DNA from: a virus
Direction: 5' to 3' (one strand)
Length of the DNA stretch: 36,676 nt
Virus record (IMG/VR): IMGVR_UViG_3300015265_000212
Span: 1 to 36,676 of that record
Below are positions 25,949-35,686 of this stretch, one piece after another; within the stretch, counting starts at the first letter, position 1, and each line of letters opens with the position of its first letter. The notes under the pieces are model-generated. The model did no database searches and had not been told where the DNA came from. It saw only the letters and a list, made by a program, of their open reading frames with translations. The translations under genes and the position numbers were made by a program.

Positions 25949-25969
25949 CCAGCATGCAAGCAACAGGGC

Positions 25970-25993
25970 GCTCTTCGGGGCGCTTTTTTTACG
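25970..25993 (+). terminator. Intrinsic terminator with UUCG tetraloop before the tailspike
   Basis: Stem GCGCTC/GGGCGC (one G-T pair) with TTCG loop and T7. It sits between the J-like gene and the tailspike Shine-Dalgarno (AGAAGG). Confidence 0.8.
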
Positions 25994-26013
25994 TCCCAAT
26001 AGAAGGTAAAAAA

Positions 26014-27873
26014 ATGTCATCAATTACGATCACAGACCTCAACAATGCGAAATCCGATGTCGATCATATTGCCGAGATCGCAACGTCAAGGGCGATAACT
26101 GCGACCGACCGGAAGGGGAATGTAAAGGACACCATCGCCGGAGCAGTCGCCAAGATCGCGGCATTCAACAGTCGTGGGGTATGGGGGGCCGCCACTGCGT
26201 ATGCAGTGAAGGATCTTGTTTCGAATGCCGGCACCTGGTACGTGGCCGTGGTTGCGCACACGTCCAGCGCGGCGTTTGCAACTGATGCGGCGGGCAAGTG
26301 GCGCGTGTACCAGGGCGTGACATTGGGCGATCTTGCCGCAATCGGTGGCGCGTCATTGGTTGGTATTAGGAGTGGACAGACACTGGGGGACATATTCCAG
26401 AACTTTTATGTTGCTACAGAATACGATGACATTGAAAAGATACTCGCCGACACTAGCGGCCCGGTCTGCATTTACCTTGCTGCAAAGCGATTTAAAGCGC
26501 CGTTGAAATCGCTGACATATAAACGCGACGGTATAGCCCTAATCGGAATGATGAGTCCTAGAAATTCACAAGACAACACCCGAATGGAAAATGGCTCTAT
26601 TGTTGAAGGTACTTTGTTTTTTCAAGGTTGCAATTCGGGAGTTCTTTGCGATATCGGGGTCGACCGGGGCTTATATGTAACTAATAACCTGTTTGCAGGT
26701 GTGCGTAGTGATGGATTGGTTGTGACTTCCATAGTTGATGGCGATACCTCACAGCCCCGAGAAATAAACGGATGGGTTATTTCCAATGTTAGTGGTTTGG
26801 TTCCAGTAAATACAGAACAAAACCCAAGTAAAGGCCACGCTATTCTAATAGAAGGTGTTAATGGAATAAATAGTAAAGTTGGCGATTTATCAGGAGACGG
26901 AGGTTCGTCGGCAGTTGCAATTAAATGCAAAAACATGAAAATAGGAAATGTAAAAGGTGTTCGCGGTTTTCCGTATAACATAGTCTTAAAGTCTAACACA
27001 TACGCGAATTTCAATGATATACAAACCGGTGTACTAACAAGCCGCGACGGCGGGGGTATTGCTATTGTGGCGGATGATGTAACGGTTGGTTATGGATTAG
27101 CACGCCTTGAAATCGAAGGGTATTTTGCAACAAATTGCCAATGGGGGCTTAGGACTGATAGCGCTTCGGGCCAACCTATCAGCGATGTTCATATTGGATT
27201 CGCATTCGGCAGAGGTATAACCGGCACGGGCTTGCACATAAAAGGTGCGAATACAAGCCGTATAACTGTGGATAATCATTCGTTCGAAGGTTGTCAAACC
27301 GGCGTGATAGTGAATGAAGGCGCGACCGGCGTTGATATTGGCGCAGGTAATGTTGTTGGAAGTAAGGCAAACGGATACTTTATAGACTCAGACAGTGTTA
27401 TCTCTGGCCATATTAAATCTACGTATAACACTGGTTGCGGCATTGTGACATATTCGCCTAATTTTTGCTGCGATTCGTTTAACGGCAATAATAATACAGG
27501 TGGGAATTACGGAGGCCCTTATGTGCCGTGTCCGATTGCTGCGTCTGAATTTTTCTTTGCTTATCTTTCAGCGGGTATGTTATCGCCATCACCGATAACA
27601 CTTTCCATTGGAGCTAAGTTTATTTTTTCATTTGTAAACGGTGACATTTCAAGAAGTGGCGGCGGTTCTATAAATTCTGGAACCGAACTTTGTATAATAC
27701 CTAGCGCAATACGACCAATATCCTCTAAATTTATTATGGTTGGGGTTTTGCTTGTTGGTGGCAGTTTTGATGTTCAACCTGCAACAATCAATAACGCAGA
27801 CGGTGTTGTAACATATCGCGGACAACCCGCAGCCACTATTTACCTCGGCGGGAACTCATTCGACAGACGTTAA
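26014..27873 (+). CDS. Tailspike/receptor-binding protein with beta-helix, 619 aa
   Basis: ATG at 26014 with AGAAGG upstream. Residues about 1-120 are high-GC-coded and include a carbohydrate-binding-like stretch (GVWGAATAYAVKDLVSNAGT, WYVAVVAHTS), typical of virion-attachment ends. From about residue 125 the DNA becomes clearly AT-richer, and the protein turns into a repetitive Asn/Gly/Ile-rich pattern (e.g. GLHIKGANTSRITVDNHSFE) expected of a right-handed parallel beta-helix. Such spikes bind or cleave surface polysaccharide. A catalytic set cannot be identified by eye. The composition change suggests that the receptor-binding part was acquired by recombination. Confidence 0.75.
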   Translation: MSSITITDLNNAKSDVDHIAEIATSRAITATDRKGNVKDTIAGAVAKIAAFNSRGVWGAATAYAVKDLVSNAGTWYVAVVAHTSSAAFATDAAGKWRVYQGVTLGDLAAIGGASLVGIRSGQTLGDIFQNFYVATEYDDIEKILADTSGPVCIYLAAKRFKAPLKSLTYKRDGIALIGMMSPRNSQDNTRMENGSIVEGTLFFQGCNSGVLCDIGVDRGLYVTNNLFAGVRSDGLVVTSIVDGDTSQPREINGWVISNVSGLVPVNTEQNPSKGHAILIEGVNGINSKVGDLSGDGGSSAVAIKCKNMKIGNVKGVRGFPYNIVLKSNTYANFNDIQTGVLTSRDGGGIAIVADDVTVGYGLARLEIEGYFATNCQWGLRTDSASGQPISDVHIGFAFGRGITGTGLHIKGANTSRITVDNHSFEGCQTGVIVNEGATGVDIGAGNVVGSKANGYFIDSDSVISGHIKSTYNTGCGIVTYSPNFCCDSFNGNNNTGGNYGGPYVPCPIAASEFFFAYLSAGMLSPSPITLSIGAKFIFSFVNGDISRSGGGSINSGTELCIIPSAIRPISSKFIMVGVLLVGGSFDVQPATINNADGVVTYRGQPAATIYLGGNSFDRR

Positions 27874-31790: not shown

Positions 31791-32474
31791 ATGTGTGCGG
31801 ACTATACCCCCAGCCGTAAAGAGCAAATCGAAGACCACTTTGGTGTTCGTTCGTCTCAACTCGACCTTCCGCCGGAGGCATGGCCCGGTTATATGGCACC
31901 CGTACTCCGCAGCTCGCACGAAGCGCCTGGTGAGATGGAAGTCACCCCGGCCATGTTCGGAATGGTGCCGCACTGGGCAGACCACAAGCTGGCCCGCCAG
32001 ACCTATAACGCGCGCACCGAGACGGTGGCCAGTAAGCCATCCTTCCGTAGTGCCTGGAAGCGCAAGCAGTTCTGCATCATTCCTGCGGAGAACTTCTTCG
32101 AGCCCAATTACGAAACCGGCAAGCCTGTTCGCTGGCGCATCGAGCGCGCGGACGACGGCCCGATGGCCATTGCGGGCATCTGGGAGTATCGCCCGGCCGA
32201 CCAGCTGTTGTCGTTCTCGATGCTGACGATCAACGCCGACGGGCATCCGCTGATGCAGCGCTTCCACAAGCCAGACGACGAAAAGCGCATGGTGATGATC
32301 CTAGACCCGGACCAGTACCAAGGCTGGCTGGACGGCTCGCTGGTGTCGGAGGAGGACGTTTATCGACAGTATCCTGCCGACCTGCTCGTCGCGCAGCCCG
32401 ATCCTTTGCAGCCCCGGTCAAAAGCGAAACCGGCGGCGAAGGCTGAAGCTGCGCCGCCAGACTCACTTTTCTAG
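31791..32474 (+). CDS. SOS response-associated peptidase (SRAP, YedK/HMCES family)
   Basis: 227 aa. Catalytic Cys2 follows the initiator Met (MCADYTP), with Asn73 (TYNARTET), Glu104 (NFFEPNY) and His159 (QRFHKPDDEKRM): the full set of the family. These proteins form a covalent link with abasic sites in single-stranded DNA and shield them. The C-terminus has a Lys/Ala/Pro-rich tail (about 200-227). It sits directly before the LexA-controlled umuDC pair, so a damage-tolerance cassette is likely. No LexA box is seen in front of this gene itself. Confidence 0.9.
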   Translation: MCADYTPSRKEQIEDHFGVRSSQLDLPPEAWPGYMAPVLRSSHEAPGEMEVTPAMFGMVPHWADHKLARQTYNARTETVASKPSFRSAWKRKQFCIIPAENFFEPNYETGKPVRWRIERADDGPMAIAGIWEYRPADQLLSFSMLTINADGHPLMQRFHKPDDEKRMVMILDPDQYQGWLDGSLVSEEDVYRQYPADLLVAQPDPLQPRSKAKPAAKAEAAPPDSLF

Positions 32475-32513
32475 AAACAATTTTATACTTCCTGTTTCTT
32501 GCTTCGGTCGATA

Positions 32514-32533
32514 TACTGTATAAAAACACAGTA
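32514..32533. promoter_or_regulatory. LexA-binding SOS box
   Basis: CTGT-N8-ACAG core with extended TACTGTAT...ACAGTA, very close to the E. coli consensus. It lies 12 bp before the umuD ATG at 32546. Predicted control: repressed by host LexA, induced by DNA damage. Confidence 0.85.
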
Positions 32534-32545
32534 TATTGGCCAGCC

Positions 32546-33019
32546 ATGAATGCAACATTATTAATTCTTCAATCTAGCCAGCCTGGCGTATCGCAGGTTC
32601 CTTTGCCGCTTGCGCAATATCCAATCCCCAGTGCGCAGCCGGAAATTTCTCACCGCATATCCGCTGGGTTCCCATCGCCGGCTGCCGATTACACCGAGGA
32701 CGGCCTGGACCTGAACGCGCTTCTGGTGCAGCACAAGGCCGCGTCGTTTTTTTTCACAGTTGAGGGCGACTCCATGCGCGACGCCGGCATACTGGATGGC
32801 GACAAGGTGGTGGTCGACCGCTCCGTCGCGCCATTGCACGGCCACATAGTCATTGCCGTCATCGATGCCGAATATACCCTTAAGCGCCTCTATTGCCAGC
32901 GGGGTAGGGTAGAGCTGCGCCCGGACAACCCGGCGTACAAGGCGATCTGCCTGGCCGAGGGTAGTGAACTGCAGATTTGGGGCGTGGTGACGGGCGTCGT
33001 GCGCAAGCTGCGGGTGTGA
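32546..33019 (+). CDS. umuD: UmuD-like subunit of DNA polymerase V, self-cleaving
   Basis: 157 aa. Cleavage site Ala40-Gly41 (ISAGFPSPA), catalytic Ser76 (GDSM) and Lys113 (TLKRL) are all present. Cleavage would give the active UmuD' that joins UmuC in error-prone translesion synthesis. Its promoter overlaps the SOS box. The stop is followed one base later by umuC. It is shorter than a repressor and lacks a helix-turn-helix, so it is not a second CI. Confidence 0.92.
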   Translation: MNATLLILQSSQPGVSQVPLPLAQYPIPSAQPEISHRISAGFPSPAADYTEDGLDLNALLVQHKAASFFFTVEGDSMRDAGILDGDKVVVDRSVAPLHGHIVIAVIDAEYTLKRLYCQRGRVELRPDNPAYKAICLAEGSELQIWGVVTGVVRKLRV

Positions 33020-33020
33020 C

Positions 33021-34322
33021 ATGAGCGATCCGACGAAGCAGATATTTGCGCTTGTCGACGTCAACAATATGTACGTCAGCTGTGAGCGCGCCTTCAACCC
33101 CCGCTTGCGCGATCGCCCGGTGGTGGTGCTGTCCAACAACGACGGCTGCGCCGTGGCCAGGTCGAACGAGGTGAAGGCCTTGGGCGTGCCGATGGGAGCG
33201 CCCTGGTTTCAGATGCGCGACTTGGCGCGCCAGCATGGCATTGTGGGGCTGTCCTCCAATTACACACTGTACGCGGACATGAGCAATCGCATCATGGCCA
33301 TCCTGCGGACCTACAGCCCTAACGTCGAGGTCTACTCGATCGATGAGTCTTTCCTCAGCCTGAACGGCCTGGGCGGCCTGTGGGCTTCGCCGACGGTCAT
33401 GGGGCAGGATATCCGCGCCAAGGTGGCTCAATGGACCGGCCTTCCTGTCTGCGTGGGCGTAGGCCAATCGAAGACCCTGGCCAAGCTCGCCAACCACGTC
33501 GCAAAGAAATTTCCGCTGTTCGATAGCGTTGCCGACTTCACGACCATGTCGGATGCCCGCACCGCTTGGCTGCTGCAGCGCATCGATGTCGGGGAGGTGT
33601 GGGGCGTCGGCCGGCGCCTCAGCGCCAAGCTGCGCGCCATGGGCATCAACACAGTGCAGGATTTGAAGGATGCGCCGCCCAGCTCCATGCGTGCGCACTT
33701 CGGCGTTGTGCTCGAACGCACATGCAACGAGTTGCGCGGAATATCCTGTTTGGAACTGGAAGAGGTGGCGCCGCCGCGCAAAGAAATCGTGTCGTCGCGC
33801 TCTTTCGGCACTATGGTTCTGACGGCGGCCGAGCTGGGTGAATCGATATCTACTTACGCCGCGCGCGCCGGCGAGAAGTTGCGTGGCCAGCATTCCCTAT
33901 GTGGTGCTGTCCATGTTTTTGTTCAGACAAACCGGTTCCGCGACCAGGACGAACAATACAGCAACGGAATTACCATCCCCTTGGTCGAGCCCAGCGCCGA
34001 CAACCGCGTGTTGGCCGGCGCCGCGCTGAACGGCCTAGCAATGATCTATCGTGAAGGGTTCAAATACAAGAAGGCTGGGATTATGTTGATGAACCTGCAG
34101 CCGGATACCCAGCGCCAGGCGGTGCTGTTTGATGCTGTTCCGGATAGGGCACGGTCGGTCCGCGCAATGACTGCGCTCGATGCCATCAATGACCGCTATG
34201 GACGCGACACGGTGCACCTCGGCTCTGCCGGCGTCGTCCGGCGCTGGGCAATGCTGTCTGAAAATCGAACGCCGCGATACACCACCAACTGGAGCGAGCT
34301 GCCAACAGTGCTGGCGAACTAG
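33021..34322 (+). CDS. umuC: UmuC-like Y-family DNA polymerase V catalytic subunit
   Basis: 433 aa, full family length. Asp13 (FALVDVNNMYVSCERAF) and Asp108-Glu109 (YSIDESFLSL) are the metal-binding acids; SNNDGCAVARSNEVKALGVP is the Y-family finger signature. It copies damaged DNA with low fidelity when bound to UmuD'. Carried by the phage, it would raise survival and mutation during host SOS. Co-transcribed with umuD and followed by a small coupled gene. Confidence 0.93.
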   Translation: MSDPTKQIFALVDVNNMYVSCERAFNPRLRDRPVVVLSNNDGCAVARSNEVKALGVPMGAPWFQMRDLARQHGIVGLSSNYTLYADMSNRIMAILRTYSPNVEVYSIDESFLSLNGLGGLWASPTVMGQDIRAKVAQWTGLPVCVGVGQSKTLAKLANHVAKKFPLFDSVADFTTMSDARTAWLLQRIDVGEVWGVGRRLSAKLRAMGINTVQDLKDAPPSSMRAHFGVVLERTCNELRGISCLELEEVAPPRKEIVSSRSFGTMVLTAAELGESISTYAARAGEKLRGQHSLCGAVHVFVQTNRFRDQDEQYSNGITIPLVEPSADNRVLAGAALNGLAMIYREGFKYKKAGIMLMNLQPDTQRQAVLFDAVPDRARSVRAMTALDAINDRYGRDTVHLGSAGVVRRWAMLSENRTPRYTTNWSELPTVLAN

Positions 34323-34324
34323 GC

Positions 34325-34510
34325 ATGAGTAAATTTCGAGCCCCTCTCAGCATCGAGCAGCTCAAGGAGATCCGACAGCGCAGCGATTCGGCCGACATGA
34401 GGGCTGTGTTGTGGGAGATCCGGCGCCTTCGTGCAATTGTGTCAACCGCTGATGAACTCGATCAGAGCCTTGGCGACCGTGTCGGCTTTATACGACGTCG
34501 AATCAATTAA
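34325..34510 (+). CDS. Small protein downstream of umuC, 61 aa
   Basis: ATG two bases after the umuC stop. Helical, charged protein (LKEIRQRSDSADMRAVLWEI) without known motifs. Possible third member of the umuDC operon. It converges with, and overlaps by 8 nt, the SIR2-like gene on the other strand. No family recognised. Confidence 0.55.
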   Translation: MSKFRAPLSIEQLKEIRQRSDSADMRAVLWEIRRLRAIVSTADELDQSLGDRVGFIRRRIN

Positions 34511-35438
34511 ATGCCAGCTTAGCGTAATATAAAATTTTCTCGATTTCTTCAAAGGCACTAGCAAGATGAAAGGTGGTTCCTTTCCTCTGGTCTCGTATCC
34601 AAGGAGTGTAAGACGCGTAGTCTGGATTTACGACCGCGATTACACCGGGCGCTGTAGCAAGAGGTTTGAACAGATGAGTGTCATGGGGCACATAATTTAT
34701 GCCAATAAGCACAATGATTTTTGCCTCTAATAGGCACTCGCGCCAGTAAGCCTGTCCATGATCGATGAAGCTTTGGTTGTACGGCGACGTTTTCCCTGGA
34801 CCGTAGACGGACAGTACGGGTGTGAGATTTCTGTATCTCGGCTCATTTATCCAAGCTTGGACTTCTTCATGGCTGGTAACGAGATCCATTGGCATGCCGT
34901 CAACATATTTTTCTGTCACGAAGAATTTATTGTCCCCAAAAATTGTATCCGGCGGAAGCTTTGACAGGAAGTTCGACGAGCCATGAAGTTTTAAAACACT
35001 GACCTCAGGCCGTGGAATTGCTCGCGGTGGATATTGATAACGGATGTTCCAACCAACGCTATTGAGAGCTTGTTCTAATAACAGGTCATAATTCAAAGTT
35101 CCAAATGTGACACCCATCCCTAGATTTGGCCTGAGTCCAGCCATGAGGCGAAGATAGTGATTCCCATGTTCAATCTTAAATTGGGAAAGGTAAAGTGCTG
35201 TGAGTCGCTGCACAGGTATGACAGCATCACTTCCAAGATGCGCGACAGCGGCCATGCCGGCCTCGAATCCCTGGCCTCTAAATATGTGTCCGTACTCGGT
35301 CACTAATTTTTTGGGAAGACCTCCCTTGTATTCAACTAGCTTTTCAAACAACCAGTTTCCAAGTGGAGGGCATTCTGGTGTGCATGGGCCGGAGAAGCTA
35401 CTAGCTCCCGCCCCAAAGACAACCATCAATTTCGTCAT
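34503..35438 (-). CDS. SIR2-like domain protein, candidate NADase phage-defence gene
   Basis: 311 aa from the ATG at 35438; an in-frame ATG at 35477 is possible, but neither has a Shine-Dalgarno and the shorter start puts the fold at the usual distance from the N-terminus. The SIR2 Rossmann signature VVFGAGASSFSG lies at 6-17; catalytic Asn116 with Asp118 sits in TLNYDLLLE and catalytic His152 in LKLHGSSNF. These are the residues that hydrolyse NAD in defence SIR2 proteins. The rest has no recognisable second domain. Opposite strand, AT-rich, next to the integrase: a prophage accessory locus typical of superinfection defence. NADase activity is inferred. Confidence 0.8.
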   Translation of the reverse strand: MTKLMVVFGAGASSFSGPCTPECPPLGNWLFEKLVEYKGGLPKKLVTEYGHIFRGQGFEAGMAAVAHLGSDAVIPVQRLTALYLSQFKIEHGNHYLRLMAGLRPNLGMGVTFGTLNYDLLLEQALNSVGWNIRYQYPPRAIPRPEVSVLKLHGSSNFLSKLPPDTIFGDNKFFVTEKYVDGMPMDLVTSHEEVQAWINEPRYRNLTPVLSVYGPGKTSPYNQSFIDHGQAYWRECLLEAKIIVLIGINYVPHDTHLFKPLATAPGVIAVVNPDYASYTPWIRDQRKGTTFHLASAFEEIEKILYYAKLAFN

Positions 35439-35477
35439 ATATGTTTTTTTAACAAAAACCCACGATACCGTAAACAT

Positions 35478-35686
35478 AGTTATTTAGGAACACTTATCGG
35501 TAGCTTGCTAGCTTACCGAAGGACGAAAAAAGCAGCACTAGGCGGCTTCTTCAAGCTGTCATTTTGCTGTCATTCTGGTGCCTAAACAGCCCAAATCACC
35601 CAAAAATAATGCCAACGTTGAATAATAAGTACTTGATTCTAAAGTGTTTTTTTGTTGGGGCGGCGGGAGCCGAGCCCGCCTCCACG
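35478..35686. other. Candidate attP region
   Basis: Noncoding gap at the 3' end of the integrase gene, where lambda attP lies. A perfect 6-bp inverted repeat GGCGGG/CCCGCC flanks a 7-bp spacer AGCCGAG (35662-35680), the layout of a tyrosine-recombinase core site. It is followed by TCCAC, so the end resembles the 3' end of ssrA or a tRNA T-arm. Tandem GCTGTCATT at 35555 and 35566 (11-bp period) could be arm-type sites, and an imperfect inverted repeat (CGGTAGC...GCTTACCG) lies at 35498-35518. Confidence 0.5.

Follow-up and report, generated by a model that had tools for sequence, protein, structure and literature searches.

A solitary SIR2-like gene of a temperate siphovirus as a candidate single-gene anti-phage effector

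Introduction

The window analysed here, which is the whole stretch of DNA and consists of one virus record of 36,676 bases, carries close to its integrase gene a gene (P0001) for a SIR2-like protein of 311 amino acids, and thereby raises the question of what a lone SIR2 domain might do for a phage. Known SIR2 NADases possess an extra domain or a partner that keeps them off or switches them on. A protein with neither would therefore have either a trigger of a new kind or a mode of regulation unlike that of the known SIR2 NADases. The original prediction was that of a candidate anti-phage NADase acting as a single gene, with a sensing step that may be new.

Position and composition of the gene

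As judged by PHROGs, the record is that of a temperate siphovirus, with genes for a ParB-like protein, a CI-like repressor, a CII-like activator, primase, terminase and portal, and further genes for head, tail, holin, endolysin and tyrosine integrase. An SOS-type group encoding an SRAP peptidase, UmuD and UmuC lies between the lysis genes and the integrase; the SIR2-like gene follows it, on the opposite strand to umuDC and on the same strand as int. The identification of these neighbors by Pfam and PHROGs (umuD, Peptidase_S24; umuC, IMS; tyrosine integrase) bears out the placement and orientation first described. The gene is intact and open over its full length (Table 1). Its start at 35438, as originally given, is preferred over the upstream start of the mechanically called ORF at 35477 because the GAGAS motif lies only a few residues from the N terminus in almost all relatives. 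The AT-richness ascribed to the gene is also evident, as its G+C content (46.6%) is lower than that of umuC (60.9%), int (54.8%) and the whole record (58%), and its third-position G+C is 45% versus 77% in umuC.

A search of the record for exact CTGT-N8-ACAG revealed no LexA site upstream of the SIR2-like gene. The exact sites are the consensus LexA site CTGTATAAAAACACAG at 32516-32531, 14 bases ahead of umuD within the SOS-type cassette (SRAP peptidase/umuD/umuC, 31791-34322), and one inside the terminase large-subunit gene (11889). If the search tolerates up to one mismatch, the matches number seven, which is not above chance, and nothing stands out in a search for promoters and terminators near the SIR2-like gene.

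Several other features of the record are worth describing in their own right. UmuC shares 69% identity with a UmuC encoded on a Janthinobacterium replicon, and this suggests that the virus has a betaproteobacterial host. A 61-aa ORF (34325-34510, plus strand), whose sole significant match is phrog_32761, begins 3 bases past umuC and is convergent with the SIR2-like gene, overlapping its 3' end by 8 bases. The interval that separates int from the SIR2-like gene contains, immediately downstream of int, a segment (35639-35683, minus strand; GGAGGCGGGCTCGGCTCCCGCCG-CCCCAACA) that looks like a tmRNA gene 3' end. Its alignment with the 3' end of Pseudoduganella ssrA scores 30 versus a maximum of 25 in 50 shuffles, and its matches to the Rfam tmRNA models are weak. 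The segment may represent an att core within ssrA, in which case the record would be circularly permuted and the SIR2-like gene would be the last before the attachment site. After the tail genes, a gene for a 639-aa protein (25954-27873) has a G+C content of 46%, far under the phage mean, and its product matches known phage families over the first 130 residues only, as in exchanged receptor-binding proteins. At the left end of the record (1-2193) is encoded a 730-aa protein with a ParB-like N-terminal part and a long remainder without a match.

A divergent family with an invariant active site

The family to which the window protein belongs is a phage-borne addition that goes unrecognized by the main annotation libraries or falls short of their cut-offs. 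The comparison with SIR2 and defense families proposed alongside the original prediction gave matches for most of the family, 21 of 28 members matching Pfam SIR2_2 (PF13289) at E <= 0.1 (best 1.1e-8). The window protein scores 19.8 bits over residues 112-156 only, under the gathering cut-off of 24.5, and has only weak matches to the PADLOC SIR2 models. Nor does the window protein have a match in PHROGs, in NCBIfam or in a single-sequence search of the PDB, and scanning viral and genome contigs with its sequence alone gave no relatives. One relative, 31% identical and located on a Halorubrum (haloarchaeal) plasmid, was found by tblastn; because this match supplied a seed, profile-guided scans became possible, and these recovered about 30 full-length relatives (26-39% identity), which come from proviruses, from bacterial contigs and from the one haloarchaeal plasmid. 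The collection comprises 17 viral and 15 genome loci (one of the latter, L021, being partial and distant) and spans Pseudomonadota, Acidobacteriota, Chlamydiota and Halobacteria. The family is rare and patchily distributed, a member being carried by 1 of 394 other genomes in the order of the Serratia locus (L009). In the tree, the window protein pairs with a Shewanella sequence (96/90) in a mixed clade of six made up of viral contigs and bacteria. Two metagenome bins assigned to Proteobacteria and Verrucomicrobia (L013 and L014) hold the same SIR2 gene with an identical predicted protein; as bins of different phyla share it, mis-binned contigs are indicated.

Invariant in all 28 aligned proteins are GAGAS, P24, E59, M62, N116-Y117-D118, E122, H152-G153, P207, K216, G246, D253 and H255 (Table 1). 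Because the catalytic residues are invariant across 28 divergent proteins, in which the relatives share 26-38% identity with that of the window, the motif is far beyond chance. A profile search of PDB sequences pairs N116 and H152 with the Asn and His in ThsA (6lhx, residues 107-154) and in the SIR2-HerA SIR2 subunit (8w9l). The catalytic residues of Bacillus ThsA, which we take to be N112 and H152, fit the aligned range of 6lhx. A further match in this search, to I-MsoI, was rejected as a short chance match to NYD-LLE. NAD cleavage or immunity depends on the counterparts of the pair in DSR2 (N133/H171; PMC11087589) and in the SIR2 protein of V. cholerae Nezha (N168/H227; PMC11559045).

Table 1. 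Coordinates in the window of the SIR2-like gene and of its conserved motifs.
Feature	Residues	Position	Strand	Basis
SIR2-like single-domain protein gene (P0001)		34503..35438	-	ORF, Pfam search, alignment, model, Foldseek
GAGAS dinucleotide-binding motif	9-13	35400..35414	-	invariant in 28 aligned proteins
PPLG motif	24-27	35358..35369	-	P24 invariant; L26 and G27 nearly so
FEAGM family signature, helical part	58-62	35253..35267	-	E59 and M62 invariant; F58 and G61 nearly so
Catalytic Asn motif N116-Y117-D118 (in LNYD)	116-118	35085..35093	-	invariant; aligns with NYD Asn of ThsA and PsSIR2
Catalytic His motif K150-L-H152-G-S154	150-154	34977..34991	-	H152-G153 invariant; K150 and S154 nearly so; aligns with His of ThsA and PsSIR2
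D253-x-H255 loop after strand 241-245	253-255	34674..34682	-	both invariant; weak line-up with PsSIR2 KDQHI

A single SIR2 fold

An AlphaFold model built on the 28-protein alignment (mean pLDDT 91.8, pTM 0.90) shows one compact alpha/beta SIR2 fold and no second domain; the FEAGM signature lies in the helical part, which includes helices 43-56 and 58-66. Among PDB structures, the top Foldseek matches are all anti-phage SIR2 proteins, namely SIR2 subunits of SIR2-HerA (for 8wld, an E value of 6.4e-8 and a TM-score, by query length, of 0.63) followed by Avs5, with CobB, human sirtuins (SIRT3), ThsA and DSR2 ranked behind. Alignment, profile match and fold therefore agree that GAGAS, Asn116 and His152 are intact, as first proposed, in a protein with a SIR2 Rossmann fold and an Asn/His active site.

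These observations bear on two alternatives to a defense role. It is extremely improbable that the gene is a decaying or inactive moron without function: two relatives are indeed broken by frame shifts, one in a Vreelandella isolate (L012, 7881-8767) and the other in a low-coverage metagenome bin (L018, 1758-2680), but the window copy is fully open, retains every invariant residue and yields a confident fold. An active SIR2 enzyme with a non-defense role, such as a protein deacylase, an ADP-ribosyltransferase or a regulator that the phage would employ during lysogeny or takeover, is a more substantial alternative, since the CobB and SIRT3 sirtuins also match the fold and any role in lysogeny could be filled by a prophage gene that has a strand to itself. 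Such a role is nevertheless unlikely, given that Foldseek scores anti-phage SIR2 proteins above sirtuins and that relatives occur in a P2 hotspot and beside CBASS and restriction-modification genes (see below). Moreover, homology to a housekeeping sirtuin of the CobB type, which had been named as an outcome contrary to the prediction, was not observed: the window protein has no match to PF02146, and no zinc-binding cysteines are conserved in the 28-protein alignment.

Absence of a recurrent partner

All family members are single-domain proteins of about 292-318 aa, none of which carries an added domain. When 547 ORFs of at least 50 aa around the 32 loci were clustered by BLASTP, no neighbor family was present in more than 4 loci, and this clustering does not support a conserved partner gene. 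The neighbor families that do recur are repressors, tail proteins, integrases, UmuC and shared P2-type structural genes. The proximity of umuC to the SIR2-like gene in the window is seen again in proviruses L030 and L032 and is read as a common moron site, not as partnership. The description of the gene as single, with neither a second domain nor an obvious partner, thus extends to some 30 loci.

An incomplete or distributed system might still depend on a partner of another sort, either an ORF of fewer than 50 aa, which would have been missed by the clustering, or a host protein encoded elsewhere, in the manner of HerA; the SIR2 protein of SIR2-HerA, the closest fold, depends on HerA for immunity (PMC11559045). 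A required partner is rather improbable, however, as the 32 loci lack a recurrent neighbor family, and because the family crosses phyla and includes a haloarchaeon, a single conserved host partner is less likely.

Relationship to known SIR2 defense systems

The window family resembles the known SIR2 defense NADases and falls in none of the named systems tested. The SIR2 protein of SIR2-HerA (Nezha / Gao_19) is both the best fold match (8wld, 8sub, 8j4u) and the best profile match to the window protein, with which it shares the NYD Asn, the KLHGS His and a similar D-x-H loop; the two are nevertheless only about 12-15% identical, the known SIR2 chains are 381-415 aa long, and no HerA ATPase is adjacent to the window gene. 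ThsA and DSR2 have the catalytic Asn/His pair and the SIR2 NADase core in common with the window protein. However, ThsA carries a C-terminal SLOG sensor and needs ThsB, whereas the window protein is a single fold without the former and its gene has no ThsB beside it (the neighbors being umuC, the 61-aa ORF and int). Similarly, DSR2 bears a long sensor part that binds the tail tube protein, and a long C-terminal sensor region of the DSR1/DSR2 type is absent from the window protein and from the family at its lengths. A short pAgo, as in SPARSA (SIR2-pAgo), is neither adjacent nor fused at the window gene and does not recur around the 32 loci, and the STAND NTPase part of Avs5 is absent from the window protein, as judged from its length and model.

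Precedents for single-gene defense of the Sir2 type do exist. Among the single-gene models of PADLOC, PDC-S21 is matched by 14 of 28 family members (best 1e-5) and PDC-S25 by 7 of 28 (best 8e-8), in both cases with low scores and with no match for the window protein. To our knowledge, both models represent candidates without an experimental test. Another precedent is AbiH (PF14253) of Lactococcus abortive infection, a single-gene defense protein for which a Sir2-superfamily enzyme has been predicted (PMC3506569) and whose mechanism appears as unknown in PMC12322248; PF14253 weakly matches 3 of 28 family members (best E 0.0012) and does not match the window protein. The vertebrate noncanonical sirtuins FAM118A/B, here compared with the window family by description and not by sequence, have been likened to bacterial antiphage sirtuins and require filament formation for NAD processing (PMC12700824). 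The suggestion of a single-gene system is thus supported, and the family lies outside the named systems tested, but its architecture is less unprecedented than had been supposed, because AbiH is a predicted single-gene protein of this type and the two PADLOC candidates weakly match relatives.

Genomic contexts of the relatives

The surroundings of several relatives are revealing of a possible function. In L024 and L026, the gene lies between those for the portal gpQ (PF04860) and the replication protein gpA (PF05840). This interval in P2 is a defense hotspot that holds old, tin and many defense systems (PMC9122126), and these two relatives are thus located in a known phage defense hotspot. In an Anoxychlamydiales bin (L015), the gene adjoins a type I methylase/specificity fusion and an apparent HsdR, and in Serratia (L009) an integrase lies 1.1 kb from it. 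In Ketobacter (L008), a CBASS cyclase is found about 1.7 kb away, with two ORFs between it and the SIR2-like gene; the 2TM CBASS effector model has one match among the neighbors scanned, which is most likely the first of these ORFs. A PADLOC scan of 118 neighbors at the genome loci also gave Gabija-like, type IV, reverse-transcriptase and MADS-like matches, which were not placed individually and come from models some of which also match housekeeping proteins. Counting against a defense reading, many relatives have plain phage or chromosomal surroundings with no defense island. The sub-threshold SIR2_2 score of the window protein, and its lack of the extra domain or partner through which known SIR2 NADases are controlled, weigh in the same direction.

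The Ketobacter arrangement, with the SIR2-like gene downstream of the cyclase and two ORFs on the same strand, might indicate that the protein serves neighboring signaling systems in some genomes, for example as a second CBASS effector, and was captured by phages as an orphan. This is highly improbable, as that cyclase family was present in only 1 of the 12 genomes searched, the protein has no nucleotide-binding second domain and nearly all relatives are without such neighbors. A standalone SIR2 defense effector is, in contrast, well supported by genomic context, and the P2 hotspot, CBASS, type I restriction-modification and integrase associations, together with the patchy distribution of the family, lend weight to the anti-phage role first put forward.

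Proposed function and implications

The gene is probably a moron, or lysogenic-conversion gene, of the temperate siphovirus, encoding a single-domain SIR2-like NAD+ hydrolase that would act as a self-contained abortive-infection effector and be triggered directly. The NADase chemistry is suggested by ThsA, DSR2 and SIR2-HerA, which have the same Asn/His pair; the defense phenotype and the whole of the sensing step are what we infer for the family. In the lysogen, the SIR2 enzyme would be idle. Upon infection by a different phage, the SIR2 domain or its oligomer would be the direct target of either a phage protein or some change linked to infection, most likely via the family-specific helical part at residues ~28-105, which follows the first strand, bears the FExGM signature and is a candidate regulatory surface. 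The active site around N116/H152 would then open and NAD+ would be cleaved to nicotinamide and ADP-ribose, and with the loss of NAD+ the cell would stop growing and the rival phage would not be made. Activation driven by assembly has precedents in ThsA, Avs5 and FAM118 (PMC12700824).

More tentatively, the relatives may together constitute a widespread single-domain SIR2 family, mainly borne by temperate phages, in which the NADase domain or its self-assembly itself senses infection, with no sensor domain, partner or second messenger. If so, it would represent a near-minimal SIR2 immune protein, in which detection and killing are combined in one 300-residue fold, and would raise the question of how such an enzyme stays off and gets switched on without an added part. 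A family of this kind would also bear on how AbiH acts, as well as on the FAM118 sirtuins of humans.
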